A stretch of DNA of 31,863 nt from a virus, in the IMG/VR virus record IMGVR_UViG_3300017765_000020, positions 1 through 31,863 of that record. One strand, 5' to 3'. Position numbers and translations under genes: made by a program. The notes under the pieces were generated by a model. It made no database searches, had not been told where the DNA came from, and saw only the letters and a list, made by a program, of their open reading frames with translations. Below are positions 1,706 to 28,628 of the stretch, one piece after another. Numbering within the stretch: position 1 is the stretch's first letter; every line of letters begins with the position of its first letter.

Positions 1706-3088
1706 TTATACTCCACCAAATGGGTTTACTTCTGAAAAGTCTAAAATAGAATCAGCTTCGGTCTGAATAGTAATACTTTCAGTATAAGGCTGTGTAGTAT
1801 CTATATAGTTTACAGATCTGAGTGTCAAAGAGCTTCCCCCCGAACCAACTATGGTTTCTCCTGGAATAAATGCTCCTGTTATATTTGAAACAGAAAGTAC
1901 AAAATTTGATGAGTTGTAACTTCTAACTCTTGCAGTAGAAGAACTAGATTCTCCAGTTATTATTTCATTCAAACTGAAAGATGCTGTTCCATCTGTTCCA
2001 AAAGATTCTGGAATAGCAATAGAAACTGATGGTATTCCAGTATATCCAGTTCCTGCATTTGTTATATTAATCGATGATACTATACCCTCGTTTATAACTG
2101 CTACTCCAGATGCAGTGGTTCCACTTCCAATTGGGCCGCTGAAAGAAATTACTGGCGGATTAATATATCCACTTCCCCCACCAGTTATACTGACGATACC
2201 AACAGTTCCTTGTGTAATATTAGCCTTTGCTGAAGCAATCCTAGTATTATCTCCTATACCACCAATGAATTGTATATCTGGTTCTGAGGTATATCCAAAT
2301 CCAGGATTTGTTATCTCAATTTTTTCAACATAAAATGTTCCATCACCTATTGGTTCCATTATGGCAACAGCCGTAGCACTTTGACCAGAACTTGGTGGAG
2401 ATATTGCAATCAATGGTGCTGTAGTATAAGAGTATCCTCTGTCTAGAATAGTGATGCTCTGAACAGAACTATCTTGATTAGTGTAACTGGTTATAGCAGA
2501 AGCTGATGTTCCTGCACCAGTTAAAGTGAATGTTGCTTGATATCCAAGATCTACAATTTCATCATCAATTTCGTCAATACCAGTTTCAATAATTTCATCT
2601 TCGAATCTGAAGAGTTCGCATGTCAATTCATAAATATAGTTTTTTTGTAATTGGTAGAATGGTTTATCTCTCTTTACATTTTTAATTTCGAATAAGACAT
2701 CACCAAGTGGGAAGTAAATTATATCACCTTCTTTAGGTCTGCTAGAAAGTTTTATATTTGGAATTCTTTCAATCAGTGGTTGAATATAAAGTTCATATCT
2801 TTCTTGAGAAACTTCTAAAATTATTTCATCTTTAGACTCTATTCCAAATTTAGATAATTCTACACTTTGTCCTTCCCATCCGTCATAATTTTGCAAATAC
2901 ATTTCTATTGGAAGAGCATTTCTAAAAGCAGAGACTATGTTCTCTTTTATTATAGTATTTTCTCCCAAATATAATCTCGGCATATAGTGTACTTCTACAC
3001 CATACATTTTTATAGATTCTGTTATGAGGTCCTGCATCAGGCCTTGTTCGCCTTTAGAACCTTGTAGAAAAAAAGGATTTAATGCCAT
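1706..3088 (-). CDS. gp14: Neck protein gp14 with repeat-rich C-terminal extension
   Basis: Residues 1-175 match T4-like gp14, the neck protein that with gp13 completes the head and joins it to the tail. Recognisable stretches are MALNPFFLQGSKGEQGLMQD, 'YGVEVHYMPR', 'FGIESKDEIILEVS' and 'GDIIYFPLGDVLFEIK'. T4 gp14 is 256 aa, but this protein has 460. Residues about 185-365 hold four or five copies of a repeat of the form 'I-x-I-x-x-x-G-x-G-Y-x-x-x-P-x-I-x-I'. Residues about 365-430 hold a 'G-E-x-x-x-x-S-S-S-x-x-A-R-V ... G-E-T-I-V-G-S-G' module. Both modules recur in the baseplate genes, so the tail of gp14 looks like an accessory surface domain added to the core. The start ATG overlaps the gp13 stop as TAATG, so translation is probably coupled. 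The function of the extension is unknown. Confidence 0.88.
   Translation of the reverse strand: MALNPFFLQGSKGEQGLMQDLITESIKMYGVEVHYMPRLYLGENTIIKENIVSAFRNALPIEMYLQNYDGWEGQSVELSKFGIESKDEIILEVSQERYELYIQPLIERIPNIKLSSRPKEGDIIYFPLGDVLFEIKNVKRDKPFYQLQKNYIYELTCELFRFEDEIIETGIDEIDDEIVDLGYQATFTLTGAGTSASAITSYTNQDSSVQSITILDRGYSYTTAPLIAISPPSSGQSATAVAIMEPIGDGTFYVEKIEITNPGFGYTSEPDIQFIGGIGDNTRIASAKANITQGTVGIVSITGGGSGYINPPVISFSGPIGSGTTASGVAVINEGIVSSINITNAGTGYTGIPSVSIAIPESFGTDGTASFSLNEIITGESSSSTARVRSYNSSNFVLSVSNITGAFIPGETIVGSGGSSLTLRSVNYIDTTQPYTESITIQTEADSILDFSEVNPFGGV
1990..2540 (-). repeat. G-x-G-Y beta repeats inside gp14
   Basis: This part of gp14 encodes tandem copies built on 'ITILDRGYSYTTAPLIAI', 'IEITNPGFGYTSEPDIQF', 'VSITGGGSGYINPPVISF' and 'INITNAGTGYTGIPSVSI'. 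Each is spaced by a small Gly/Ala-rich linker. Copies diverge at the DNA level but share codons for G-x-G-Y-T-x-x-P. The period is about 45 residues. Confidence 0.8.
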
Positions 3089-3924
3089 TATCCTATCATA
3101 TCAAGGGGTGGTATTTCATAGGTATTTGACATTTGCTCTCTAATTATTTGAAGTTCTTTTTCGGCATCATCGTACATTTGACGGCCATTCAATTCAACTC
3201 CACCAGGAAGTTTCATACCTTGGAATTTCATCATATTTTGACCCCACTGTCTTTTAATAAGAGATGTAAGATATTTTTTAAGAAATGAATCATTCCAAAC
3301 TCTAGTATGAGTATCTGGATTCATTCCTCTATAACAATCAATAACCAAATACTTATCTTTGGATACACTAGACCAATCAATATCAAGATATAGTCTATTC
3401 ATTCTTTGATTGAATCTTATTTGTTTCTGAGTTGATAATAAGAAATCAATATCTTCCAAATACCTTTTTGTCATAGAATATGTAAGAAGTTCTGTTGAAC
3501 CCCAGAAGTAAATATCATTCAAGAAAAGTTGATATTTAATACTAAACATTCCAGAACTGATGGAATTAGACCCCTCAAACTGAAAAACTTTGGTTATTCC
3601 AATTATATCATCTGGAACTTTTAGATAGTTACTGTTTTCTTCATAATCAAACTGAACTGAAGAACCATCTATTATAGATGTTGCAGAGGTAGTTGCTATT
3701 CCAACAGAGTTAGTGGCTCTACCTCTATTAATATCATCTTGAGTAAATTTATACTTTAGAAGCGTTGGGAAGACTCCATCAAAATGTCTTTCTTGAAAGT
3801 ATTGAATTGCATCATCAACTAGATCGTCGATTTGCTCATCGGCAACATTTATCTCAAGAACTGGATATCCCAGTTGTCTTTTGCAATAATCTATTAAAGT
3901 TTGTCTAGATGATGGTTGTGCCAT
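3088..3924 (-). CDS. gp13: Neck protein gp13
   Basis: This 278-aa protein fits T4-like gp13 (309 aa in T4), one of the two head completion proteins that close the portal after DNA packaging and prepare the head for tail joining. Characteristic features are the N-terminal 'SRQTLIDYCKRQLGYPVLEI', then 'ADEQIDDLVDDAIQYFQERH' and 'FDGVFPTLLKYKFTQDDI', and the C-terminal 'LTSLIKRQWGQNMMKFQGM' and 'LPGGVELNGRQMYDDAEKEL'. These are strongly conserved across T4-like phages. The full family length is present and no insertion modules are seen, in contrast to gp14 and gp15. Its ATG overlaps the stop of the preceding 72-aa gene (TAATG), and its own stop overlaps the gp14 start in the same way. Confidence 0.9.
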   Translation of the reverse strand: MAQPSSRQTLIDYCKRQLGYPVLEINVADEQIDDLVDDAIQYFQERHFDGVFPTLLKYKFTQDDINRGRATNSVGIATTSATSIIDGSSVQFDYEENSNYLKVPDDIIGITKVFQFEGSNSISSGMFSIKYQLFLNDIYFWGSTELLTYSMTKRYLEDIDFLLSTQKQIRFNQRMNRLYLDIDWSSVSKDKYLVIDCYRGMNPDTHTRVWNDSFLKKYLTSLIKRQWGQNMMKFQGMKLPGGVELNGRQMYDDAEKELQIIREQMSNTYEIPPLDMIG

Positions 3925-4142
3925 TACTTATTTTCTACTAATTTGTGAAGGAGAGATTTTATTTCACTAATCTCATTTTTCATACAATCTAAATCGTTTT
4001 TGAAGGAATGAAATTCTTCCTTCTCCTTTAGTTTTTGTTCTTTAAGTCTAATATAGGAATTGTATGCTTGACTATCAGTATTTATGATAGCATTTGAGTT
4101 TTCATCCCTAAATAAATTTTTTTTATCTTTGACTTGTTTCAT
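3924..4142 (-). CDS. Small conserved coiled-coil protein before gp13
   Basis: This 72-aa charged protein starts MKQVKDKKNLFRDENSNAII and continues into an almost unbroken helix rich in Lys and Glu. The C-terminal third (about residues 45-70) has heptad spacing of hydrophobics, 'MKNEISEIKSLLHKLVENK', suggesting a short coiled coil. I recall similar small proteins immediately before gp13 in marine T4-like phages. Their function is unknown to me; the position would suit a minor neck or tail assembly component or chaperone. It begins 2 nt after the large 2697-aa structural gene and its stop overlaps the gp13 start, so it is probably translated by coupling. No clear Shine-Dalgarno is visible. Confidence 0.75.
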   Translation of the reverse strand: MKQVKDKKNLFRDENSNAIINTDSQAYNSYIRLKEQKLKEKEEFHSFKNDLDCMKNEISEIKSLLHKLVENK

Positions 4143-4144
4143 AG

Positions 4145-7100
4145 TTATGCTAATGCTATTACTCTCAAATCTCTAATCTTAGGAACCACTGCCTGATTAG
4201 TAGATGTGAATATTATTTTTACTTGATATGCACCATATTCTGGAAGATTATCAATTGTAAATTCATAATCAGAATATTCGTTATCACTTATGTTAATTGG
4301 AACAAATCTATCTGGTAATCCATCACTATTTCTAGGATCTAATACTTCGGAGTTATTTCCAATATTATTGTATCCTGGGAATAGTTCAAATTCTGGATTT
4401 ATAGGACCATCTTCTCTGAAGATTTTATATAGAGCTCTAATATCAGTACCAGCTGGACGATTACCTAAGAACATCAATTTGATTGACGTAGCTGGTTGTT
4501 CTAATCTTATTGCCTGAGTCAAATAAACTGCAGAATGTGGTTCTGTGATGGAATTCATAATAGCACCATCTTGAGCAAAATCCTCTACAGGTTTATCAAT
4601 CCTATTTGTGCTTAAGATAGCATTGACTCTTGTAGTATCAACAACTGGTGATATATCTCTATTATTAGTATTCAAGTTTAATTCTAAAGTCAAAGATCTA
4701 GATCCAGGAAGTTCTGAGACGAATTGCTCTTCATTTACTCTGGAAGCAACCATTCTAGGATTATCAAAATAGTTGTTTTCATTTATAACAACTGGTTCAA
4801 ATCCTTTATCTTCAAAAGAAGCCTCTGCTGTTCCATTTTGATATCCACCAATACTTGTAGCAGAAATAGTTCTCACATTAGAAGTAATTGTCGATTCTGA
4901 AGGAGTGAATACTTGAACATTAGGATGAATTAATTCAAACTGTAAATTTTTTGTAGATTTAACATTAATTCCACCAGCACGTTTTGTTTCTCTAAAGAAT
5001 AGTTCTGGGAATCCACTTACATTACCAGTTCTGTCTGTTAGTATTGTAGTAACTCCTTCTGTTCTTCCAGACCTATCAATTTTTAGATAAAAACTATCTA
5101 GAGACCTTGATATATCTGTAGGGACATTTGTTCTTGCAAAATTATGTTGAGTATTTAATCTAGCTAAACAGATTCCATTAAGTTCGTATTTATCTACAAA
5201 ATTATCAGCAGTATGTGTTGTTGGAACTGTATTAAATGAACCCCTGGTAATTCCTGAAAGTCCAGTAGAATCCGAGGTTATTGCAGTATACCTAATAATC
5301 TCGCTATTTATTTTGACATATCCAGGATTTGTGTTGCTAATAGCCATTCCCTCAAAAGTTCTATATTCATCTATTTCTGCCGTGTTTGATGTAGTCGTAA
5401 TTGTAATATCATCAGTAGAAGTCTTTGATATAGTTTCAATTAGAGTGAGTGATTTAGTATCAGTTCGTATATTTGAAAGATTTACTAAATTATTTGATGA
5501 GTGCATTCCATGACTATGGAATAGTACATTCATGTGCAAACCATCTCTACTATTGTTGGGGAAGACTTCTGAAGTATTAGGAGTAATTCTAAGAAGCTTT
5601 TTATCAACTCCAGAGTTATTTGTATAGAAAATTACGGAATTTTCGTTATATGTTCCTTGAATATTTCCAACAAACATTGAGTTAGTAATTCCAAGACCTA
5701 CAATAGAAATTCTTGGAGTTTCATTACCAACTCTAGCAAAATTAGTAGGATTAATACTCAATCTTTGACCGACTTGATAACCAGAACCACCATCAAACAC
5801 CTTAACACCATTAACATCAATTGAACCATTGTTAACTGTGATATTACATGTTGCACCAGATCCAGTTGAAGATGTTAATTCAATATCTTTATATGTAAAA
5901 GTTCCGACAGAAGGTGTAAGACCGATTCCAACATCATCAAGTTTTATACCACTTCCGGAACCACTGGTTTTATTGCTGGTAATTGAACCGCCCAGTCCAA
6001 CAATAATTCCACTAAAGTCTGGATTATTTGCTTGAGTTATTCCGATACCTGGTCCAAGCTCACCTAAAATATTTGAAGTAATCTCAGTTGATACTCCAAT
6101 TTGAATTTGTCTAGAAGCCATAATCAGTGGATTATCCCTCAATCTCTTTATTTGATTATTATCTTCTGAAAGAATTGAACTGTAAAATCTTACAGTACCA
6201 TTAGTTTCTTTAAATTTAGCTTTATTGATAACATAAGCCAAATCTTCAAACTGATTTGGAGTCCAAGTAGAACCGTTTTGTGACTTAAATAAGACACCAG
6301 CCGAAGGTTGCTGAGAAACAATTGATTGAGATTCGCTATCATCTTCAGAACTTCTGAATATGTCAATTTCTCCCATCCTTGCAATGTATACATTATATTC
6401 ATCAGAATTTGAAAGTAAAGTTATACCATATTCTCTATTAGCCTCAAGATATACTAATGATGGGAAAGTAAATCTAGTAGATGATAAAGAATCTAAGGAA
6501 CCACTGGCATCAAAAATATTAACATCTTCAGGTTCTAATGTGACTTCACCAAATGGTGGAATTATTTGAGTTGGAACACCGTTTCTTAAAGTTCTTATTT
6601 GACAGGTAATTGGTATGGATTCTGATTTTGTTTTAAAGTAGATATCGATACTACTAATGAATACACCACTTCCATCACCAGTAATAAAAGACTGGCAAAG
6701 TGGATCAATCCATCTAACGTCTTCCTGTACTTCTTCTTGTTCCTGAGTTATCCTTGTTTCTTGGCGAGTACTCTCTTCAAACTTTTGATCCGTATGGTCT
6801 CTCTTCTCAATTTTAGCATTTCTAACACCAATGACATCTTCTTGAAGATTATCAAGCTCTCCTTGAGCAAAGAAATTAGTTTCTGCAGAAGTATTGACAA
6901 AACCTCCAACCGTAGAATTTACAGAACTATCTGTTAGTCTAAATGTTTTTGTTCCCGTTTCAAATCTTGGATTTTTTGCTACTGAAGAATCTGGAATAAA
7001 GAAGCATCCTCGAATAGAACCATTTTCATCAGTTACTAATCTGACATTCGATATTGTTGCTTCAGCACCACTGTTTTGTCCAACCAACTTCATACCAACT

Positions 7101-10100
7101 CCTACCCATCCAAGACCATTCTCTTCGATGCTAGATAATCCAAAAGTATCAACATTTAAAATATTAGTTGACTCTGAATATTCAGATTCCATAGTAGAAT
7201 CTGAATTGTATGGGCTAGTAGTATAAGTTGCTGTAGGATTATTATATGGTCCATACTTATGATTTGGATTTGCTAATCTAAATCTTATTCTTGGATTTAC
7301 ACCATCTCCAGATATATCTGGATTATCTTGTGGCATGAGACCTTGCACAATCTCACCAACTTCAAATTCTCCATTTACGTTACTAACTTCCAATAACTTA
7401 GGAACAATAAAGTTATTCAAATCTACACCATCAAAGAATGGGTAAACCCTTGTCAATGGTTTCAATCTCTTTGCAATAAATTCAACATTTCGGAATCTCA
7501 TAAAAGGAATTACATCCCTACTTACCACTTTGTTACCAAGACTTTGCTTATCGATTTGCTCAGTAACTTTATATGAGATTCCAGTTCTATTAAATTCATG
7601 TCTAGTGGTAATCTCTACTTGTTGGGATGTGGTTACCGTATCTGTCCTTACCCTAGCAATTTCAACTTCACCAAGTCCGCTATCTGCTGTACCAAATCTA
7701 GCTCCACCTCCCCTATCAAATGCAGATTCTTGAATTGCTAAAGCTTCTCTAGTTCCAGGTTCAATTCCTCTTCTCTGAAGATTGGCGAGCATTCCTGCGC
7801 CGAGAGCATTTACTGCCGAACCATCAGTAACAAGTCTAAATTGAGTTGTTCCGTCTGCTCCTGTAGTTGAATCGTTTGTACCAACTGTTGCAGTCAATAA
7901 TCCATCTGCATCTGGTTGGCCAAAACGAGTAGTAAGTCTTTGACCAGCTGCACTGTCTGCATTAATCAAAAATTCATTATTACTACCTCTAGAGATGACC
8001 CCTTCAACCAAAGAATCAATTAGACCACTTGCAAGGTCATTATTGCCAGCATCTAAAACTCTTCCTGCTCCATTAGAGAATATATGAACTCTACTTCTAT
8101 CAACTACTCCAGTTTTTTGCCAAGTGCTTTCGCCCTGAACTTTTGTCTCTATGGGAGAACCTATATTTCGTTCCGACTCTGTTCTTCCCGCAAAGTTTTC
8201 TTCCCATGCATTCCATTGAATAGCACTCCAACCATCAGCTTCAGGTGGATATAAATCCATAAATGCTTGATAAGAACCTTCAAGAGTTATATTGTTAACT
8301 TCTAGTTGATTTGTTGCAATCCAAATATCAGATTCTGGCTCAAGTTCCATAGAACCAGACCAGTTTACAATATTAAACGGATTTACATTTTCAGTTCTTG
8401 TAGCAAACTTTTGAGACTGAAATTCTTCCTCGTCATAATCTAATGTAATTAGATCTCCTGTTTTTCTTACATTTGGACTACCCAAATCAGTTACAAATGC
8501 TAAATCTGCATCTGGTGTTGTTGTACTAGTAACACCAGGTATAGCACTAGAACCAAGTTGCAAATCAATAGATGGCGTATTATGTGAAGGTCTGCATAGA
8601 TTATTTTCTGTATCAATGGAACATCCCCAACTTGGATCACTAGTATTAGCTAACTGCAAAGTGCTAAAGTTATCTACATAGAAACCAGATTTAAATCTAT
8701 CTAATCCTGTTGTTGGGTCTTTTATTGTTAAAGCGTTGGTATCAGTTTCTAACAATGAAAGTGATGTATAAAACTCAATATTAGAAATTCTTCCATCAAG
8801 TTTAGCGATATCTTTCATAGTATATCGCTTATTTTCCGATTTTATGAATTTAACTTGCTTCGCGCCAAATACATATGGTGGTAAATAAGCAGTTCCTATT
8901 AAAAGTGCTGAGTCTTCATTTGAAGGTTCTTTTGGATCTCTAGAGGCAATTCCTTTTTGAACAGTAAATTTACCATCTCTCGTTAAGAAAATTTTATCAA
9001 TTCTGCCTACATAATGATCAAATCCAACCTCTAAAACAGTTTTTGGAGTTATGCTAAATTGTGGATGTCCTGAAGGATCTGAAAAGTCCTTCCCATCAAA
9101 TTCAAATGGAGATCTTGTATCTGTAGATAAATCATAATCTTTTACTCTAGGCCTAAAATCAATCAAATCACTATTTCTAAACAAGTCCCCTCTAGATTGA
9201 GTGAATGATATTGATTGATATACGTCTGGCGAATAACTATTTGCACTAAAGAAATCGCCACGATCAGAAGAATCTACAGAATATTTTTGGTAGATTACTC
9301 TTATTTTACGCTTTGGTTCGAATGTATTTGAAGACTTTATCAGTCTTGAGTAATCATAATATTCTGGTCTAATTCCGTTATCAAAATAATAATCACCAAA
9401 GATGTTCTTATCTCCTAATGTAGTTAAAAGAACTTTTGCTGTTATTAAAGAGGATGCTGATAAAATACTTTCTCCTGGAAGAAATCTCTCCTCATTCATA
9501 TACTGAATTTCTAAACTATTTGTAGTAGAATCTTTGGTTACAACAATAGCCTTAGCAACACCAAATAGTGACTGTATAGTTTCTCCAATAACAAAATTAT
9601 CTGCTGTAGTCGTAGGTCCTGTTATATCAGTTAATTTTATAGTTGGTAGTTTTGGATTTTCTAAATTTTCAGATTCATATACACCATAAACTCTGTATAC
9701 ATCTGGACAATTCAAAGATATCTGATCGTCTTCTACTCTAGTTCCATATACCGATGAATAGCTCAATCCATTGTTAAATGTTCCTTCCCCAGTTCCTGAA
9801 GATTCATACTTAGATCTAGATATTGTTAAATCTCCAATACTATTAAATTTTTTCTCTTTTGACTTTACACTTTTTTTATCTAAGGTTGTAATAAGAGTAT
9901 AATTTGTCCCATTAGGGATGTCTGCGATAGAAATCTGTCTTCCTACTATCGTTACATTTCCTCTGTTGATGGTGATTATAGTTCCATTAGAATCTGTCAA
10001 TTGATATTTACTACCAACATCCTTCCAAGAAACTTCTGGTAATGTTTGGAAATCAGGTTCGGTATCTAGATTTATTTGTAAAAAGTTGTTGGATACCGTT

Positions 10101-12238
10101 CTATTTGTAAATTGATATGTTAAATTCAGATCACCTTGAGAAAGATCTACAGAAGCTACATTTCTATATTTTAATGGGCTAAAGAACCCACTACTCTTAG
10201 AAATAAAGGATGGTCTTAAAATTCCTACCGATGATTTTTCTTTTGTTCCAGAAACTATTTCACCTCTATTTACGCCAGAAACTGCTGTTACTCCAGCAAT
10301 TCTCACATCTCTTCCGGAGGCAAGGAGTTCTGTAATTTTAGCATATGATGGTAAAATCTCAGAAGTTGCAAATACAGATGTATCGTCAGGATTTGAATAA
10401 ATGATAATATCGTTTTTTCTGGCTAATGTAGATAAATTTTCATTAGTGCTGGTTAATATACCCACATTTATGCCTGTATCTCCAGACATTTGAAATTCCG
10501 TTCCCACACTAGATAAAGAAATTACTCTATCCAATACAGTGTCTGCATTAAAGTGTGCTCCCAGTCCATGCGTATTTTTATTTTGGAATACCGACTTTAC
10601 ATCACCTAAATTGTAATCATAAACCTCTGTAGTCAATATACTTTCTTCTTCGCCATTGATAATTAATTCTTCATTTTTTATGAACTGGCCAGAAACATTA
10701 GTAACTACTAATTTTGGATCTGTTACTGTATTGTCGATTTCATACTTTAAGAATCCGCTAGCGCCACTAGACTTACCTTTTATAAATGTGGGGAGCTCTA
10801 ATTTACTTCTACCAATTGTATTAACGCCAACCTCAGTATACGTTTGCATATCATACATGTATAATTGATATTCTGAAGATGCATCTTCATAAATGTTTTC
10901 TGAAGTTAAATCTAAAACTCTTGCTTCACCTACAGTAGTAATTCCAGTTGAGCCATCTGTAGTATCTCTCCTATCATGTCTTAAATCAATAATATTGTTG
11001 TTATTATTAAATTCGATTGATGGAATCCCATAGAGATTATTAATCTTTACAGATACGCCATTCTCTACATTAATACCAGAAGTTGGGACTCCAACAGTTG
11101 TTCTTGGTTTCTCTACGTCCAAGTATTTTGGAGCCAACGTTTGAATATCATAACCTCTAACATATGCCTTACCTGGCATAATTTTATAGGTCAATAAATC
11201 ATCAGATGCCGGATTTCCTTCGGGTGTGATAGAACCTCTGTCAAACAATCCATTATTTCCCGAATAGTTGTTTACAGTTTCTCTAGGAAATACATCAAAA
11301 GATTTTATGACATAATCTCCAGATTCATCATATGTTCTTCTTGCTAACTCTTGGCGAACTAAATTATATTGACTTCTATCGACAAATTTTTCTATTATAC
11401 CATTTCTTATTCTAATTAATTCAATAAAGTTTTGATCATTTCTGTCATCAATATCTTTTTTAGATAATATGAGATTTATTTTTAATCTATCAGCACCTGG
11501 TGCTGCATAGTTTGAAAATCCTTGAGAATTATCATTCAATGACGAATCATCTAAAGATGAAACTATAGTCTCATTTACCAATAACCCCACTCTTACTGAT
11601 GGACTATTGCTATATTGATCTAATATGACTGTCTGCTTTTCAACAGACACAAAATTCCCTCTAACAAAGTAAACACCATCGTTGATTGTCGCTGCTGATG
11701 CTTTAAAACTGGCACTTGTGGGAACGGTATTTGCAAAAGTATTTCCAGCCTGTATTAGAGTGGAACCATAAATTATATTCGAATTGGTTATTAGAGACTC
11801 TCCGGGTTGGAAAACTTGATATTCCGAATTTGGATTTGAGTTCAAATATTTTACATATAGAGTAACAAAACCCTGCTCAGATTCTGTAGAATCTAAAACT
11901 TTCGATACAGTAGCTGTAACACCACTAGTCGAGCCCTTTACTGAAATTCCAACCAGTTTATCTAAATATGATGCTACAGGGACACCAAAAAACGAAGAGT
12001 CAATTCTAACACCATAGTAACTAAAATCTACTCCAGTAGCTCCTGGAATGACTTGAGAACCTTCTTTAAAAAAGTGGTCCCCAAATTTTTCAATCTGATT
12101 CTGAAGTATACTTTGAAGAGTTGTTAACTCTCTGGCTTGTACTGGAAATCCTGGTTTGAATAAAACTTTATGAAAACCTTTGTCTTCATTAAAGTCATCA
12201 AAATAAGGAGAAACGTTGAGATTAGTTTGCTGGGGCAT
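4145..12238 (-). CDS. Giant DUF4815-type virion structural / baseplate protein (2697 aa)
   Basis: The N-terminus, 'NLNVSPYFDDFNEDKGFHKV' followed by 'LFKPGFPVQARELTTLQSIL', is the hallmark of DUF4815 proteins, found in tail structural proteins of many marine myophages. The domain covers roughly residues 1-600. Residues about 1570-1606 have the phage structural motif 'SRDVIPFMRFRNVEFIAKRL' followed by 'TRVYPFFDG'. Residues about 1834-1970 have the 'DPLCQSFITGDGSGVFISSI' domain. Residues about 2296-2351 carry the 'VKINSEIIRYT ... GITRGSF' module, and the C-terminal 200 residues include 'NNRDISPVVDTTRV' and 'VYLTQAIRLEQPATSIKLMF'. It sits between gp8 and gp13, where T4 has gp9, gp10, gp11, gp12 and wac, so it probably forms the outer baseplate or fibre-attachment part (sometimes called gp10-like in cyanophages). 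That role is inferred. The start lies 4 nt after the gp8 stop. Confidence 0.8.
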   Translation of the reverse strand: MPQQTNLNVSPYFDDFNEDKGFHKVLFKPGFPVQARELTTLQSILQNQIEKFGDHFFKEGSQVIPGATGVDFSYYGVRIDSSFFGVPVASYLDKLVGISVKGSTSGVTATVSKVLDSTESEQGFVTLYVKYLNSNPNSEYQVFQPGESLITNSNIIYGSTLIQAGNTFANTVPTSASFKASAATINDGVYFVRGNFVSVEKQTVILDQYSNSPSVRVGLLVNETIVSSLDDSSLNDNSQGFSNYAAPGADRLKINLILSKKDIDDRNDQNFIELIRIRNGIIEKFVDRSQYNLVRQELARRTYDESGDYVIKSFDVFPRETVNNYSGNNGLFDRGSITPEGNPASDDLLTYKIMPGKAYVRGYDIQTLAPKYLDVEKPRTTVGVPTSGINVENGVSVKINNLYGIPSIEFNNNNNIIDLRHDRRDTTDGSTGITTVGEARVLDLTSENIYEDASSEYQLYMYDMQTYTEVGVNTIGRSKLELPTFIKGKSSGASGFLKYEIDNTVTDPKLVVTNVSGQFIKNEELIINGEEESILTTEVYDYNLGDVKSVFQNKNTHGLGAHFNADTVLDRVISLSSVGTEFQMSGDTGINVGILTSTNENLSTLARKNDIIIYSNPDDTSVFATSEILPSYAKITELLASGRDVRIAGVTAVSGVNRGEIVSGTKEKSSVGILRPSFISKSSGFFSPLKYRNVASVDLSQGDLNLTYQFTNRTVSNNFLQINLDTEPDFQTLPEVSWKDVGSKYQLTDSNGTIITINRGNVTIVGRQISIADIPNGTNYTLITTLDKKSVKSKEKKFNSIGDLTISRSKYESSGTGEGTFNNGLSYSSVYGTRVEDDQISLNCPDVYRVYGVYESENLENPKLPTIKLTDITGPTTTADNFVIGETIQSLFGVAKAIVVTKDSTTNSLEIQYMNEERFLPGESILSASSLITAKVLLTTLGDKNIFGDYYFDNGIRPEYYDYSRLIKSSNTFEPKRKIRVIYQKYSVDSSDRGDFFSANSYSPDVYQSISFTQSRGDLFRNSDLIDFRPRVKDYDLSTDTRSPFEFDGKDFSDPSGHPQFSITPKTVLEVGFDHYVGRIDKIFLTRDGKFTVQKGIASRDPKEPSNEDSALLIGTAYLPPYVFGAKQVKFIKSENKRYTMKDIAKLDGRISNIEFYTSLSLLETDTNALTIKDPTTGLDRFKSGFYVDNFSTLQLANTSDPSWGCSIDTENNLCRPSHNTPSIDLQLGSSAIPGVTSTTTPDADLAFVTDLGSPNVRKTGDLITLDYDEEEFQSQKFATRTENVNPFNIVNWSGSMELEPESDIWIATNQLEVNNITLEGSYQAFMDLYPPEADGWSAIQWNAWEENFAGRTESERNIGSPIETKVQGESTWQKTGVVDRSRVHIFSNGAGRVLDAGNNDLASGLIDSLVEGVISRGSNNEFLINADSAAGQRLTTRFGQPDADGLLTATVGTNDSTTGADGTTQFRLVTDGSAVNALGAGMLANLQRRGIEPGTREALAIQESAFDRGGGARFGTADSGLGEVEIARVRTDTVTTSQQVEITTRHEFNRTGISYKVTEQIDKQSLGNKVVSRDVIPFMRFRNVEFIAKRLKPLTRVYPFFDGVDLNNFIVPKLLEVSNVNGEFEVGEIVQGLMPQDNPDISGDGVNPRIRFRLANPNHKYGPYNNPTATYTTSPYNSDSTMESEYSESTNILNVDTFGLSSIEENGLGWVGVGMKLVGQNSGAEATISNVRLVTDENGSIRGCFFIPDSSVAKNPRFETGTKTFRLTDSSVNSTVGGFVNTSAETNFFAQGELDNLQEDVIGVRNAKIEKRDHTDQKFEESTRQETRITQEQEEVQEDVRWIDPLCQSFITGDGSGVFISSIDIYFKTKSESIPITCQIRTLRNGVPTQIIPPFGEVTLEPEDVNIFDASGSLDSLSSTRFTFPSLVYLEANREYGITLLSNSDEYNVYIARMGEIDIFRSSEDDSESQSIVSQQPSAGVLFKSQNGSTWTPNQFEDLAYVINKAKFKETNGTVRFYSSILSEDNNQIKRLRDNPLIMASRQIQIGVSTEITSNILGELGPGIGITQANNPDFSGIIVGLGGSITSNKTSGSGSGIKLDDVGIGLTPSVGTFTYKDIELTSSTGSGATCNITVNNGSIDVNGVKVFDGGSGYQVGQRLSINPTNFARVGNETPRISIVGLGITNSMFVGNIQGTYNENSVIFYTNNSGVDKKLLRITPNTSEVFPNNSRDGLHMNVLFHSHGMHSSNNLVNLSNIRTDTKSLTLIETISKTSTDDITITTTSNTAEIDEYRTFEGMAISNTNPGYVKINSEIIRYTAITSDSTGLSGITRGSFNTVPTTHTADNFVDKYELNGICLARLNTQHNFARTNVPTDISRSLDSFYLKIDRSGRTEGVTTILTDRTGNVSGFPELFFRETKRAGGINVKSTKNLQFELIHPNVQVFTPSESTITSNVRTISATSIGGYQNGTAEASFEDKGFEPVVINENNYFDNPRMVASRVNEEQFVSELPGSRSLTLELNLNTNNRDISPVVDTTRVNAILSTNRIDKPVEDFAQDGAIMNSITEPHSAVYLTQAIRLEQPATSIKLMFLGNRPAGTDIRALYKIFREDGPINPEFELFPGYNNIGNNSEVLDPRNSDGLPDRFVPINISDNEYSDYEFTIDNLPEYGAYQVKIIFTSTNQAVVPKIRDLRVIALA

Positions 12239-12242
12239 TTTA

Positions 12243-13847
12243 TTAGAATTCTATAATAATTTTAATATCTTCTTTTTGGTTTCTTGATCTGGGAATAGGT
12301 TCTCGATTATCGACATAAATTATATCTCCAGACCTAGGTTTAATTTCTGGATTTGCAACACCATTCACAAATGCTTGTCCAAGATTATATTTCCTATTAT
12401 TTATTGTCGTTGTTGAACTGGGATTATTAGATGTTCCGAAAGTGTTATCTATACTTAATCCATTAGGTGAGGGATTATCTGGTTGGTTTATTGTCAAATT
12501 ACCTCCAGTTCCAACACTTCCAGTAAATCTAAGTAACTTGTAACCAAACTGTGGTTGTGTTCCATATGCTGGAGAACTAGGTCCCCCTTCTGGTTGACTC
12601 AATACAAGGCTTCTATCTTGCCAGAACTTTAAAATCTGAGTGGTTTTATCATATGATGCAACTCTTCCTATAGCTGTCATTCCAGAACCCACGGTTTGAG
12701 TGATTCTCTCATCATCAACAAAACTTAGAGTTGATGCGCCAATACCAGTCAACTTTAAAGCGTAGAGTCCAGAAGCTGTTGGTTGAGTGAAAGTTACTCC
12801 AGTTCCAGAAAATGTTTCTGGATTTTTTACTACACCCAATCTAGCAAAACTATTACTAGAAATAACATCAGGATTTTGGAATTGTAGATTTTCAAATCTA
12901 CTATAAAGTAAAACTCTATTGGCACCCAATTCTCTATAGATATTAGCACCATGACCACCTTTCGGCGAAATCATAACATCAAAATTTGCTAGTGTTGTAG
13001 TTCCAATTCCAGTATGAGTTACATTTGAAATATCGAGAGTTCCATAACTGTATCCACTTCCTCTATTAGTTATTGAAATATCTACAACTTTTCCTTCCGA
13101 TGAAATTGCAATAGAAGCTTCTGCTCCATCCCCATCACCAATAATTGGGATATTGTTTATTGAAGTTGCGGAACCATATCCAATTCCCGCGTTTACAATT
13201 ACTGCAGCCTCAATAGATCCATCTACAGAAGCATCAACAATATCAGATACTTCTGAATTACCTAATGACCATTTTTCTGGAACGGGTATAAAATCAGTGG
13301 AATCGAATTTGATTACATCATTTGGTCTTATTGTATAGAGATATTTCCAAAGATACTTATCGCTACCATCACCTGCAGCTTGTGCTGTAGTAGTTGTATG
13401 GGTTGGTTCGTTGATGGATGGTCTTCCTTTTGGATTATCAGGGTCTGTTCCATTCTGCAAACATATATAGACTCTATAATCGCTGGTTAGTACATAAAAT
13501 TTTGAATCATATAATCTGGTAGAATTTGTTATGGGAGTTCTATTGACTCTAGAGTAGTCATTTCTATACATCTCATAGGTTTCTCCAGTGACCCAAGTAT
13601 ATTTTCTCACTACTTGTCTAGCATCACTTGGAGCTATCTTTGATAATGCTACAATATTATCAAATGCTCTATTTTCCTCATCAAAACTATCAATGGGATC
13701 TGGAGTATTATTCTGCCAATCACTATCTATCTCATTAATATCTGGGACAGATAAGAATGTGTAATATGAATTGGATGTATTGCCAATAGAGGCTATGAAA
13801 TCAGAAGCCCGTAATATTCTAAATTGGTCAGTTAAGATTGCCGACAT
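12243..13847 (-). CDS. gp8: Baseplate wedge protein gp8
   Basis: This 534-aa protein matches T4-like gp8 (334 aa in T4), the wedge subunit that bridges gp7 and gp6 in the baseplate. The family pattern is visible in 'SYYTFLSVPDINEIDSDW', 'VVRKYTWVTGETYEMYRNDY', 'KFYVLTSDYRVYICLQNG' and 'DGSDKYLWKYLYTIRPNDVI', ending 'FIPVPEKW' near residue 190. After this core it has two copies of the G-x-G-Y repeat (about residues 210-275: 'VIVNAGIGYGSATSINN' and 'ISITNRGSGYSYGTLDIS'), then a C-terminal half including 'RELGANRVLLYSRFENLQ'. The extension explains the length above T4 gp8. An AAGGA lies 10 nt before the ATG in a 25-nt gap that also has a late-promoter-like octamer. Confidence 0.88.
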   Translation of the reverse strand: MSAILTDQFRILRASDFIASIGNTSNSYYTFLSVPDINEIDSDWQNNTPDPIDSFDEENRAFDNIVALSKIAPSDARQVVRKYTWVTGETYEMYRNDYSRVNRTPITNSTRLYDSKFYVLTSDYRVYICLQNGTDPDNPKGRPSINEPTHTTTTAQAAGDGSDKYLWKYLYTIRPNDVIKFDSTDFIPVPEKWSLGNSEVSDIVDASVDGSIEAAVIVNAGIGYGSATSINNIPIIGDGDGAEASIAISSEGKVVDISITNRGSGYSYGTLDISNVTHTGIGTTTLANFDVMISPKGGHGANIYRELGANRVLLYSRFENLQFQNPDVISSNSFARLGVVKNPETFSGTGVTFTQPTASGLYALKLTGIGASTLSFVDDERITQTVGSGMTAIGRVASYDKTTQILKFWQDRSLVLSQPEGGPSSPAYGTQPQFGYKLLRFTGSVGTGGNLTINQPDNPSPNGLSIDNTFGTSNNPSSTTTINNRKYNLGQAFVNGVANPEIKPRSGDIIYVDNREPIPRSRNQKEDIKIIIEF

Positions 13848-13862
13848 TTTATGTTTTTCCTT

Positions 13863-13870
13863 TATTTATT
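13863..13870 (-). promoter_or_regulatory. Late-promoter-like octamer AATAAATA before gp8
   Basis: The minus strand reads AATAAATA in the 25-nt gap between the giant gp7-like gene and gp8, 15 nt before the gp8 ATG and just before AAGGA. It resembles the T4-like late promoter TATAAATA. Being in one of the few non-coding gaps of the wedge cluster supports it; the short length and AT-rich context weaken it. Confidence 0.4.
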
Positions 13871-13872
13871 CT

Positions 13873-16800
13873 TTAAAAATCTTCTTTAAATGGTAAATAT
13901 CTTGTAATTATTGGTGAAGGTAAATCGTTTGCACTTATCCCAACAATTTCATTGATATCAAATGCATACGAATCAGAAGATCTTGTTCCAGTAATTTTTC
14001 CCCAACTATAAGAACCATAGTAATAACCATCTCCAGAGTTTGTAGTAGGGGTTATCCCGTTTAAATTGGAAACATTGGAATATACTGTTGTTATTCCATT
14101 GTTCGATAAAACTTGATCAGCTTTATATATGTTATCAATGAAAGATAATCCTACACCAATCGAAGAACCATTTTCAATAGAAATTATTCCATTTCCAATG
14201 TTAGAACCAGATACTGTGAAGTATATGTCTGAGACTATTCCTTCTAATCCAGCATTTATAGATTCATCATTTTGAATAGTGAATTCAAGCATAGGTGATG
14301 TTGTATTTATTCCAGAAGAACTAGTTCCAACTCCGACTATTATTCCATGACCACCAGAAACATTTACGTTAGTAATTACTTCTGATTTTGTTGAAACACT
14401 TGAGGAATCAAATTCTTGAGAGGTTATGATTATATCGTTGGTTACTCTAGAATCTGCATTGAAATTCTTAGATATGCCATCAACATATAAAATATGATCA
14501 GAATTGGTTATAGGTCTTATTAATTTAGATTCTGGCCGTATCAATGCCTCTAAACTTAACCTTTTTTTAGAAATCAATTCTCCGCCAATAAAAGCGTCAG
14601 TATTTTGTCTTATGAGATGTGCAGACCTCAAAGATTCTGACAATCCATTTCCACTGTAAGTTGTTGTTTTTACGGAATTTGAATTATTAATTGATGTTAT
14701 GGTTCTTGAATCTTCCCTATCAATAAATCTGTTATTTTCTGGATATGATAATTGTACCTTATCCCCAATTTCTAATGGAGGATCGATATCAATGAATTTA
14801 GTATCACCAACACTTCCTTTATAGAAGAAAATCTGACACTTATAGTCGGATTTTGGTGGGTGAGTAAATGTAAACTCTGTTCCACCTTCAAATGTATAGT
14901 CGTCATTTGGTTCCTGTATAACTCCATCCAAAAGAACTATTAAGTTTGCTGCTAAATCAATAGATCCATATGTTCCTTTTTCAATACTTAATGGTTCTAT
15001 TCCAAGTGGGCCTTGTCTCTTCAAACTAAATGTACGTCTAACTCCGTCAAATTGGTTTGAGATATCAAGTACCAATTCTAATATTCCAATATTCCATGCT
15101 GCAAACGGTTCGTCATATACATCCTTTACTGTTATTGTAAATGGAGAAGTCGATGAATTTGAATCTTCTAATATTCCTACTGGTGTCAAAACTTCACCAA
15201 TTTCATATCCATATCCAAAGTTTGTAATTCTAAAATCAATAACGCTAGAACCTTGTCCAACAACTACATCAACAGATGCTCCAATTCCAGAAGTGCTTCC
15301 ACTCAAAGACAAATTATTGTATGGGATAGGAGAATCAAACAGTACTGATGGTGGGGTATTAATATTGTAACCAGAACCAGGATTTGTAATTACGACTTCA
15401 GTTACAATTCCAGCATTGACTACACCATGAGCCTTCGCTCCAGTTCCAGTTGAACTAAAGAATTTTATTGGTACGATTGGTTGTGTATATCCGGAACCGG
15501 GGAAACTAGTTTCTGTATATCCATTAAGAAGAGTTGAGTACGTAGTTCCTATGCCAACAGAATCAATCTCTCCATTGACTACAGATGCAATTCCAACCGC
15601 TCTCATTTGGGGTTGATAACCAAATCCCTGCGAGGAGGCTACAGAAACTATTATTCCCCCCTTAGGAACCATATTTTTATTTACATCAATTTGAGATACT
15701 ATATCATTTCCTAATCCATCTTCTCTTCCAACAAATCTCAATTGTGTACCAATACCCACAACATTTTCGACATTAAAATCTATGGTTGGTTTTTGAGATA
15801 TATTTCTCAAAAGCACAATACTATTAGAATTCTCAGTTTCATCATATCCACTTACAGCATTCCCTTCCTCCGTAAGATTAAAATCTTTTTTAATTCCATT
15901 AAATTCATGTGAAATATCATCAAATATAGCATTTTCTTCATAAGATGATTTTTGGAAGAATCTTCCATTGAATGATGATTTTGTTTTTAATCTGGATAGG
16001 TTTAGAAAATCGTTTCTAACCTCCGTCAATCCATATGGAGCCTCTTTGAAAAATATTCTATCCTTAACGATATTATAATCTCCCCTGTATATTCTTACAA
16101 TGTCTCCTGAAGAATGAGATTCTGCCTTGGTTCCCATCCAAGATCTATCAACCAGTACAGAATTTACGGTTGGCGTCTTTGCACTAGATATTCTCATAAA
16201 CTCATTTCCAAGTCTAACAATGTCACCATCTCTCATAGTAGAAATTCCAGTGAGAGGTAATGAGGTAGATAATCCAGTAATATTATTAGATAAAGTATGT
16301 GTTATGGAAGTCCAAGTCATTGGACTTTGAATGATATTATCTATCATAATAACACATTTCTTGTTAGAATTTATAGAATCAAAAGTTTGATCTTTCATTC
16401 CAGCATAGAAATCAGTAATGGTCAAAGCTATTCCAGACAAAGCATCAGATCTAGAAGTTGCAATTTGTATAGTATTTTCTGTCTTCTTTATTGCAAAAAT
16501 AGTTTCTGGTAGTCTATCTGTATAACCAGTACCAGTCATCACAGAAATTCTTTCCGTACCAATTCCGGTATATTGTATTTCCTCTCCAGTAACAAAGAAA
16601 TGATCATCGGATGTCCCATTTTCATCAAGGAATGTTATTGATCCTAGAGTAGTAGAAACTCCTGAAGGAGAAATTTCTTTTGAAAATAATGAATCGCCAA
16701 CATGCTTAAGTGGGAAATCCAATTTATATCTTTTTAATCTCTCAACATATGTAAAGTCATCTACAAAAATGTCTAGATGCGAGAAAGAAGTGTTTGCATA

Positions 16801-19800
16801 TCCAGCAGTTTCTTTGCCAAACTCCTCAGAAAATACCTTTACAGTAACACCTATTCCAGGATTTGGTGTAAACAAAAGATCGACTTTGTTATTATTCAGA
16901 GAATAATCATATGTACCTAGTGGGCCATTTGTATTTACATTTCCATATTCATTATAAAATGTATCAGTATCATCGTGTATTCCAATAATTGTGGAAACAT
17001 CTTTTTCTCCAGAATCAGAAATAACTTGAACTAAATGCTTTGAAGACCTGAATTGGTCAACTCTCATGGTAGAAATAGTAGTTATACTAGGATTTGAACT
17101 AGCGGATATTTCAGTAAAGTTAGACTCTAACTTTATATTTTCTGTATTAGGATCTATAAAGGTGGATCCAACAGAAGCAGTATTTTTAAATCCAATTACA
17201 TATAGTTTGCCAACGAACGAAGTAGCTGCTATCCCAGTATTCAAAGTAAAGTTTAAATCCAGATTTCCAGAAGAGTAACTAGTATCAAATGCTCCTAAAT
17301 CTCTATGAGTATTGATATCACTGAAGAATACGTTATGAACATTGAATCCACCATCGTAAGTTGTGAATCCCTCTACACATTGATAATCAGAAGAACCTGA
17401 CGGTAATAGTTGATTATCAGTATCTGTTTCTACTTGAATAATAAAACCATATGAATCATATTGAGTAGCATCTAAACTTAGTATTTTTTGAGAAACTCCA
17501 GGATTGGCATTGAATGATGTTGTCAACCCAATTCTATCGACAAATCCCAAAGAAACCGTTTCATCGATAAGAGAAGCATCTGTTATTGCTGTTCTATAGA
17601 CTTTCATATAGATGTTATCATCTATATCATATGGCATAAATTTTACTTCGATTTTTCCTAGTGTGATGTCAGTTGTTAATGTCCCGAATGGATTGCTGTT
17701 ATAAGCTCCGGTATAATCGCCAATAAAAACTAAGAAATTATTATGTGTTAATATAAAATTAGCTACCTCATATTCATTTGTGGTAGAATTATACATTTCA
17801 ATAATATACTTACATGTTCTTATAGTATTTCCATAAAAACTATCAATAACTGTAAATACATCCAAATTTGGATTACTCTTGAACTCATCACTAAAATCGT
17901 CAATAGTTATTGCTCTGTTTTTATCGCTTCTGAAGAAATCGGTAATAATTTTTCCATTAAAAGAAATATTTTTTGAACTAGAGGCAATTTTGTCCTCTCT
18001 AACCATATCAAAATCATGTATTCTGTCCACCTCTATGGAACTTGTTAGATTAGTTACTGAAGTTACAGAAGTGATTCCTGAAATTGGTCTTGTTGTGATT
18101 CCAACTGAAGATTCTGCAATATAATCACTAAATCTTTTAAATCCAGAAGTATGAACTAAATTTCCTACAGAATCGTCCCATTTACTAATATCAGTCGTTC
18201 CCTTAATTGAATATGAGAATCTTTGATAATAATTATTATCATGAATTTTTTGAGAAAAATTACTAAGTTTTCCAGTTTCTTTTGATGAACCTAGTAATAT
18301 TGGGCTTGTCGCATCTACAATAAACTTTCCAGAAGAAGTTTCTAATGACCTTACAGTGCCCTTTGCTGTCGTTGTATTGCTATTAATAGAATCTCCAACT
18401 TTAATGACTCCACCTTCAATGCTATTAACCCTTAACTTTGATGTAGTTTGATCCCATCCTTGATTATCTACGACAAATCCAAACGTTTCTGCAGAAGAAC
18501 CAAAATTTAAACGTTCTCCTGCAGAAAATAAATCTGCGACTCCCTCTTTAAATTTAATTTCATATGAAGCTAAGTTAGACTCTTTAATTATGGAACCAGA
18601 GGAATCGGTTCTAATTCCTGCAGAAGAAGTGTTTGAAATGGTATACGATACTGTAGCAACATTAGCTACTCCAGGTGCAGTGTTAACACCAACAATATCA
18701 AATAACTGATATCCATGATTACTCGAATTGTATCCATCTCCAGATCCGGAAATAATCTCAATTCCCTCAACAAATACTTTTTGACCAATAGAAAATGGAT
18801 AAGTAGAATCTGTAAATCCAGTCGGAGGTGTTCCTAACGTTAGTGTTACAATTTTAGTAGAAACATCAAATTCAGCGTCTATTACATCGATTCCATTAGT
18901 ATTATTTGTACTTACAGCTAATAAATTTGACTTTGATAATCCAGAACCACCATTTATTACATTTACTTCAGATACTGAAGATCCAATAAGATTTACATCA
19001 AAAATGATATTATTCATTTCTTGATTCAATTCAGAATCATAAATCGTAATATTTGGTGGGGTCGTATAGTCAATTCCAGATTCAACAATTTTAATACTTT
19101 CTATTTCATGGTAATTTGATATACTTATAACTGTTGGTATATCTGCTATTGGTTTAAGTGTTTTATCAGAAGAAAATTCAAAACCAATATTAGAAATATC
19201 TAATTTTTTTATGTTTCCAACTTCTTCACCAATAAAATTAATAATAGCTCCAGAACCAGTGTTTGATGCTATAGAAGTTACTTCTGGAACTTTTTTTAGA
19301 TTTGCCGATTTTTGCTTTATCTTTAAAGATTTTATAGGGCCAAAATAATTTGCTGATTCTGTAGAATATTCTGATTTTGATAAATCGGAGGATTCATAAT
19401 ACAATCTTTCCGGTTCTTGTTCTAAAGATACCTTAAAAGATTTTGAATCTATCACATTAATTTCATACTTACCATTATATCTGCTGAATATTAAATCAAT
19501 TTTATTTGAATTAAATGGTTTTGGTGCTAAATCTGGAAGTATTTTTAATTTATCTTCCTCGCCAGCACTCTTGATTTCATCAGTATTTGTTGGTTTCAAC
19601 TGATAATAGAAAGAACTTGGGAAATTTTCATTTAAATGAAGTCTAACTAAAGAATTTAATTCTCCTGGAGTTCCCACTCTTTCAATTTCAATTTCAGAAG
19701 ATGTTTTTGTAGATTCAAATTCCCCAACAAAAGATTCATCAGTAAAAAATGATAGTCTTAAATTTGTTAATGAACTATGAGAAACATCAAACGCAATATT

Positions 19801-28620: not shown

Positions 28621-28628
28621 TATTTATT
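28621..28628 (-). promoter_or_regulatory. Late-promoter-like octamer before the 66-aa gene
   Basis: The minus strand reads GGAATAAATAG, containing AATAAATA, overlapping the stop of the 216-aa gene and 57 nt upstream of the 66-aa gene start. It matches the other late-type octamers in this cluster. Confidence 0.4.

Follow-up and report, generated by a model that had tools for sequence, protein, structure and literature searches.

The window analysed here is the whole of IMG/VR record IMGVR_UViG_3300017765_000020 (31,863 bases), which contains 0 tRNA genes. On the minus strand, gp25 and gp6 are followed by a 4053-aa protein in the gp7 position and then by gp8, a 2697-aa open reading frame (ORF), a 72-aa ORF, gp13, gp14, gp15, and gp16 (Table 1); the 2697-aa ORF is intact with an ATG start. 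A preliminary description of this DNA had placed only a DUF4815 gene and a 72-aa protein between gp8 and gp13, in the slot that gp9-gp10-gp11-gp12-wac hold in T4. Both statements are borne out: the 72-aa ORF is the sole substantial same-strand ORF in the interval besides the 2697-aa ORF, and the T4 gp8–gp13 interval, with which it was compared, contains genes 9, 10, 11, 12, and wac. A gp13 gene no more than 260 bases downstream is also found in seven of the 56 loci having a downstream gp13 (median gap 4.9 kb), and another 25 loci, each with 3 kb or more of downstream sequence, yielded no gp13. By sequence, the virus is placed among the marine T4-like cyanophages, because PF23790 (Kyanoviridae Gp96, E 3.2e-47) is matched and the large protein has its best match in S-CAM9 (Kyanoviridae; 42% identity, 94% covered).

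Table 1. Genes of the gp7–gp13 region and segments of the 2697-aa protein (residue numbers are those of this protein)
Feature	Coordinates	Strand	Evidence
gp13 / head-tail adaptor Ad2	3088..3924	-	phrog_211 E 3e-49
72-aa RD..S.A/coiled-coil partner protein	3924..4142	-	phrog_473 E 6.9e-23; conserved after DUF4815 genes
DUF4815 / VrlC-type baseplate protein, 2697 aa	4145..12238	-	PF16075 E 9.8e-57; phrog_358 1983 bits; PDB 9euf homologue E 2.5e-34
Residues 2545-2697: C-terminal carbohydrate-binding-like jelly-roll	4148..4606	-	aligned with phi812 to residue 1151 (9euf_0); 72/72 rows
Residues 2257-2400: insert resembling siphophage tail-tip domain	5039..5470	-	8rk3_b (JBD30 baseplate) Z 9.2, 2.5 Å, 84 residues; 45/72 rows
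Residues 1846-2018: lectin-like beta-sandwich	6185..6703	-	9eui_Q Z 14.2, 2.3 Å, 129 residues (VIA-align); 72/72 rows
Residues 1376-1530: insert nearly unique to lineage	7649..8113	-	occupied in 2/72 rows
Residues 985-1354: DUF4815 core, second part	8177..9286	-	72/72 rows; best Pfam stretch 1064-1309
Residues 864-984: inserted barrel, tentatively like T4 gp7 domain V	9287..9649	-	45/72 rows; VIA Z 8.1-8.3
Residues 466-863: variable insertion of beta modules	9650..10843	-	199-651 aa among homologues
Residues 63-465: DUF4815 core, first part	10844..12052	-	72/72 rows; matches phi812 ORF65
Residues 1-62: N-terminal motif, proposed docking segment	12053..12238	-	most conserved block
gp8 baseplate wedge subunit	12243..13847	-	PF09215 E 3.4e-12; phrog_438
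4053-aa protein in gp7 position	13873..26034	-	phrog_2885 baseplate wedge subunit; short T4 gp7 match

Assignment of the 2697-aa protein to DUF4815, already made in the preliminary description, is confirmed by PF16075: the match scores 193 bits against a curated cut-off of 30 and is split over three stretches of the protein. By tblastn, relatives are present in 1512 of 50,697 phage records, 332 of which have one place spanning at least 80% of the query, and homologues of comparable length occupy the same position in many loci; for both reasons, the ORF is no chance ORF. The relatives comprise those of cyanophages, Pelagibacter phage HTVC008M, Ackermannviridae (VriC), Rhizobium and Sinorhizobium phages (VrlC), Herelleviridae (in which the database name is 'adsorption-associated tail protein'), and Wolbachia WO, and the gene order gp8-DUF4815-small ORF is shared by cyanophages, HTVC008M, phiM9, and Moby. 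A search of the PDB yielded a single clear relative, 'DUF4815 domain-containing protein, ORF65', which is present in 15 entries and aligns with the Kayvirus ISP protein across all 1152 residues. The ORF65 entries listed (including 9euf, 9eui, and 9euj) are phi812 baseplates, both before and after contraction.

The likeness to phi812 extends to predicted structure. AlphaFold2 models were built for residues 160–1354 (model A; 67-row alignment, mean pLDDT 77.4) and residues 1500–2697 (model B; 60-row alignment, mean pLDDT 78.8), each containing some low-confidence stretches. The Foldseek top hits of both models are phi812 baseplate chains (E 5.6e-13 and 3.7e-9, respectively), and VIA-align of the models against phi812 chains gives Z scores of 15.7 and 14.6. 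Agreement is domain by domain and in order, not rigid-body, as whole-chain superposition leaves an rmsd of 17–25 Å in some rows. The lectin-like part also matches phi812 at the sequence level (hhalign 99.8). The C-terminal half aligns with 9euf_0 at 5.2 Å over 412 residues, reaching from phi812 residue 678 to 1151 (VIA-align), and the C-terminal domain itself is alike by fold, without significant sequence similarity (hhalign 0.7%). In position and fold class, this last domain corresponds to the C-terminal carbohydrate-binding-like domain described in PMC11406892 for Deep-Blue Gp176 and A511 Gp106. The lectin-like and C-terminal domains may both be carbohydrate-binding-like, a role read from their predicted folds only. 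The N-terminal motif, two-part DUF4815 body, lectin-like beta-sandwich, and C-terminal jelly-roll follow, in sequence and in predicted structure, the order seen in the solved phi812 structure; the window protein has additional beta modules as insertions. ORF65 differs from the window protein in its length of 1152 aa, in being without large insertion zones, in its Gram-positive host, and in a small partner gene of 52 aa.

Conservation along the chain was mapped on an alignment for which three scans yielded 207 candidate proteins; 150 spanned the query, and the 71 kept after removal of similar sequences make up, with the window protein, 72 rows. Every row has the N-terminal dock, both parts of the core, the lectin-like domain, the linker, and the C-terminal domain. 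Residues 1–50, the most conserved block, show 75% identity to the window protein across the alignment, and the N-terminal region has nine invariant columns in 20 sequences that include ISP, WO, and Kuttervirus. The zones at 864–984, 2040–2240, and 2257–2400 are occupied in 44–45 rows, and the homologues of Kuttervirus and phiM9 are 1612 and 1737 aa long. Since the core is present in every row and the insertion zones vary, the 2697 aa amount to a shared core with modular insertions. The insert at residues 1376–1530 has no tblastn match in the 50,697 phage records at E≤0.01, and a small barrel module at residues 466–545 recurs in window gp14. Small beta modules in common with the insertions also occur in gp14 (1706–3088) and, weakly, in gp15 (644–1702). 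The chain may be divided between genes: in WO, the lectin-like part is encoded by the next gene, and in one further locus (L079, about 9989 to 16850), DUF4815 is split into a 1643-aa ORF followed by a 644-aa ORF beginning with the lectin-like region.

Taken with the comparisons below, the gene very probably represents the marine T4-like form of the baseplate protein known as VrlC, VriC, A511 Gp106, or phi812 ORF65, and not a fusion of gp9 to gp12; on this reading, the place of the outer baseplate of T4, and probably its broad role, is taken by different, non-homologous parts. The preferred reading must be weighed against the suggestion, in print for VrlC (PMC7029224), that such a protein substitutes for gp7 and not for the outer parts, which is considered quite unlikely here. 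Its further attraction lies in the barrel at residues 864–984, within an insertion, which aligns with residues 767–864 of a T4 baseplate chain (1.9 Å over 71–72 residues) at Z 8.1–8.3, the tool's chance best hits being 7–8 and unrelated rows of the region scoring 5.5–5.8. T4 gp7 domain V comprises residues 766–861, and chain length and range tentatively identify the matched chain as gp7. The barrel is, however, absent from 27 of the 72 rows, and neither hhalign nor a module sequence search detected a T4 gp7 signal in the DUF4815 protein. The gp7 position is instead held by the 4053-aa neighbour, which matches phrog_2885 and whose residues 188–220 align with T4 gp7 residues 727–759 (42% identity, hhalign 46%), and S-CAM22 possesses a separate 1375-aa gp7-like gene alongside DUF4815. 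Among 34 proteins searched, the barrel recurs by sequence in window gp14 (domain E 2.8e-5) and HTVC008M gp7 (E 2.9e-9); because of this recurrence, it is regarded as a shuffled tail-protein module and no trace of gp9–12.

The 4053-aa neighbour contains a YHYH domain and has no PDB match at E≤0.1. Occupancy of the gp7 position varies among relatives: S-CAM9, S-SRM01, ACG-2014f, and P-SSM2 have one giant of about 3.9–5.2k aa; Syn9, S-CAM22, and S-RIM8 have a protein of about 6.1–6.4k aa, a gp9-like gene, and a gp7 of 1.4–1.6k aa; and HTVC008M and S-CREM2 have smaller proteins. The last 29 residues of window gp8 weakly resemble the end of PF25691 (BW3TFN, baseplate wedge 3; E 0.18).

The preliminary description also suggested that the outer-baseplate, connector, and short-fibre functions might be merged into the one chain. 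Such a fusion of gp9–gp12 (and wac) functions as domains would suit the shared chromosomal slot and the great chain length, and the barrel (Z 8.1) adds a T4 resemblance, yet to a wedge protein and to none of gp9–12. The suggestion finds no support in the domain analysis, which recovers a VrlC architecture and no profile like those of T4 gp9–12 or wac, and the fusion is regarded as highly improbable. When the 15 window ORFs were searched against Pfam and PHROGs at E≤1, no Pfam family of T4 gp9, gp10, gp11, gp12, or wac was matched, and a six-frame search of the 31,863-base record for the gp9/gp10 N-terminus (PF07880) returned nothing at E≤10. The statement that no T4-like gp9, gp11, gp12, or fibritin is visible therefore holds for this 31.9-kb fragment. 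Within the 2697-aa protein, PF07880 is without a match at E≤1, as are gp11 (PF08677; best hhalign 6.6%, over 20 residues) and the middle, collar, and receptor-binding families of gp12 (PF09089, PF07484, and PF14928; hhalign 0.1%), and fibritin wac (PF07921, phrog_1056) is likewise unmatched (hhalign ≤0.3%). These family scans are able to detect the proteins in question, because T4 gp9–12 and wac themselves match their own Pfam families (over cut-off) and PHROG families strongly.

Profile comparison gave the same picture. Two profile halves of the protein scored at most 6.6% by hhalign against ten T4 tail proteins (gp5, 6, 7, 8, 9, 10, 11, 12, wac, and 18), whereas the positive controls (phi812-type, VriC, phiM9, and WO) reached 95%–100% for the parts that each contains. 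Values for the two halves were 98.9 and 99.8 for phi812-type proteins, 100 and 100 for Kuttervirus VriC, and 100 and 99.9 for phiM9 VrlC; WO VrlC reached 97.3, and its next gene 99.6. A likeness by eye between the N-termini of DUF4815 and gp9/gp10 (strand, glycine, helix) was rejected, as profile comparison gave 1.1%. Apart from the rows resembling gp7 domain V, no T4 outer-baseplate protein was recognised in the VIA-align rows shown, and the contents of the T4 and window gp8–gp13 slots share no detectable sequence or profile similarity.

Further evidence against a fusion comes from relatives in which T4-like parts are separate genes. The set comprised 16 + 4 non-T4 records (20), or 21 with S-CREM2, of which WO (29 kb) and G001 (119 kb) are not whole genomes; DUF4815 is present in all 20 and in S-CREM2 and absent from T4. 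The gp9/gp10 N-terminus is over cut-off in three of the 20 (S-CAM22, S-RIM8, and Syn9), where a separate gp9-like gene encoding about 406 aa lies upstream of the gp7-like one, and sub-threshold in phiM9 and G001. The collar domain is over cut-off in five of the 21 records, with P-SSM2 sub-threshold, and gp11 is over cut-off in none of the 20, with one sub-threshold row in S-SRM01 (E 0.033). A strong fibritin match is confined to T4; among 16 others, partial rows in ISP (E 4e-4) and Kuttervirus (0.066) are probably coiled coil. The order in S-CREM2 is gp8, DUF4815, an 88-aa partner homologue, and a collar fibre (E 1.4e-24), which means that a gp12-like fibre and DUF4815 coexist; the slot of this fibre is empty in the window. 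The proposal that functions had moved elsewhere thus fits some relatives, namely those with gp9-like genes or collar fibres, S-CREM2 having its fibre in the same operon.

Relatives also provide evidence from virions. In the S-CREM2 virion proteome reported in PMC10665884, ORF124, labelled 'hypothetical', is covered to 46% and exceeds every other protein in the table in unique peptides (450), although peptide count rises with protein length and the figure is no measure of copy number. ORF124 is a DUF4815 protein (E 7.4e-57) with 38.6% identity to the window protein over the first 409 residues, and Syn9 gp105 is annotated as a structural protein. That the window protein is instead a long-tail-fibre or adhesin protein with a VrlC-like core, sited at a fibre tip rather than the baseplate, might be argued from its lectin-like and jelly-roll domains and from the database name of its Herelleviridae relatives, but it is hardly credible given that the homologues in phi812 and A511 belong to the baseplate, that the wedge-operon position is retained across families, and that the N-terminus is conserved, whereas host-binding tips usually vary.

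For a baseplate protein of the VrlC type, a mechanism can be proposed by analogy with A511, in which Gp106 is described as forming pyramids, which make up the second layer of the baseplate, and as reorienting towards the cell wall (PMC11406892). The N-terminus of the DUF4815 protein would dock on the gp6/gp7/gp8 wedge, and the protein would assemble into pyramid-like arms of a second layer, as Gp106 does. During infection, these arms may swing and the carbohydrate-binding-like domains touch the host surface, with host specificity presumably provided by separate fibres. Pyramid formation, oligomeric state, and swing are all transferred from A511; among the papers listed for the subject, none reported a cryo-EM structure of a Kyanoviridae or T4-like cyanophage baseplate. 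VrlC has been proposed as a component of a two-layered baseplate in cyano- and pelagimyophages by Zaragoza-Solas 2020 (PMC7029224) and also in an Agrobacterium T4-like phage.

The small gene that follows appears to belong with the large one. In 186 of 192 loci, DUF4815 is followed by a first ORF of 40–110 aa, a count of length that does not imply homology, and 157 of these 186 small ORFs have RD within the first 40 residues. A partner HMM was built from 150 seeds (the window and IMG/VR loci), eight named records, phiM9 and HTVC008M among them, being left out of the original 158. At Z=1000, it matches the neighbouring genes of HTVC008M (3e-26), S-CREM2 (4e-12), Vibrio phage 144E46.1 (2e-8), phiM9 (8e-7), Kuttervirus (1e-4), and Moby (0.004). 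Five Herelleviridae genes in the partner position, including P100 gp38, have in common an 'RDP.S.A'-like start and a coiled coil. Single Herelleviridae partners match the cyanophage HMM weakly (E 0.03–3.7, Z=1000), and the score of SEP1 was reached by 47 of 1000 shuffles. The relationship is convincing only in the five-sequence profile, which scores 90% against the cyanophage profile, a score reached by none of 200 column shuffles and none of 100 motif-only shuffles; taken separately, the motif part scores 83% and the coil 15%. In EFP01, one Herelleviridae record examined, DUF4815 is not directly followed by a small annotated gene of this kind, and the 52-aa ISP partner has no match in the PDB. 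According to PMC11406892, the 63–64-aa protein after VrlC in Deep-Blue and Vp4 is called a chaperone, and A511 Gp107 is a putative chaperone that may form a binding domain. On the evidence of sequence, the 72-aa gene is a conserved, predicted coiled-coil partner of DUF4815 that can still be recognised in Herelleviridae. It is tentatively suggested, at slightly less than even chances, that DUF4815 and its RD..S.A coiled-coil partner form an ancient two-gene peripheral-baseplate cassette, found from Herelleviridae to Ackermannviridae and marine T4-like phages and alternative to the gp10-gp11-gp12 of Straboviridae, a phage having one or the other, with fibres (gp12-like ones included) encoded by separate genes beside it.

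Among the closest known systems, S-CREM2 ORF124, Syn9 gp105, and the S-CAM9 and S-SRM01 proteins share family, size class, and gene order with the window protein, although identity is about 27%–42% and most of these cyanophages have extra genes between the small gene and gp13, where the window has none. Kuttervirus VriC (Ackermannviridae) resembles the window protein in both halves and in its slot before a small gene and gp13; it differs in its 1612 aa and in having tailspike/fibre genes upstream, in which PMC11721090 describes gp10-like XD domains. A511 Gp106/Gp107 and Deep-Blue Gp176/Gp175 share the order of VrlC and then a 63–73-aa gene (P100 standing in for A511), but the VrlC proteins are about 1150–1170 aa and described only in Gram-positive phages. 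For A511 and Deep-Blue, second-layer pyramids are described in PMC11406892, whereas the cyanophage side is known from sequence and from presence in the S-CREM2 virion.

Parts of this account are already in print, namely the absence of T4 parts in cyanomyoviruses (2010) and VrlC as a two-layered-baseplate component (2020). Clokie 2010 (PMC2984593) describes cyanomyoviruses as without wac, g10, g11, and g12 and suggests replacement by unknown structural proteins, and a 2024 review (PMC11721090) describes Ackermannviridae, too, as missing gp9–12, with VriC present. Among papers containing the word DUF4815, none was by title a phage-baseplate paper. The domain map, the assignment of S-CREM2 ORF124, and the conserved partner gene are useful additions, and no new kind of system is described. 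Marine T4-like cyanophages are abundant, and the annotation of their outer baseplate is still largely hypothetical. The family tie supplies a template for a big virion protein, its pre- and post-contraction structures having been solved, and explains the seemingly missing T4 genes; the conserved small partner protein is a testable addition.

Two features of the window lie outside this region. A 216-aa protein at 28624–29274 matches phrog_3704, labelled ferredoxin (E 2.2e-112). At the contig end (31500–31863), GC content rises to as much as 0.54, against a window mean of 0.33, possibly reflecting a different region or an assembly-end effect.
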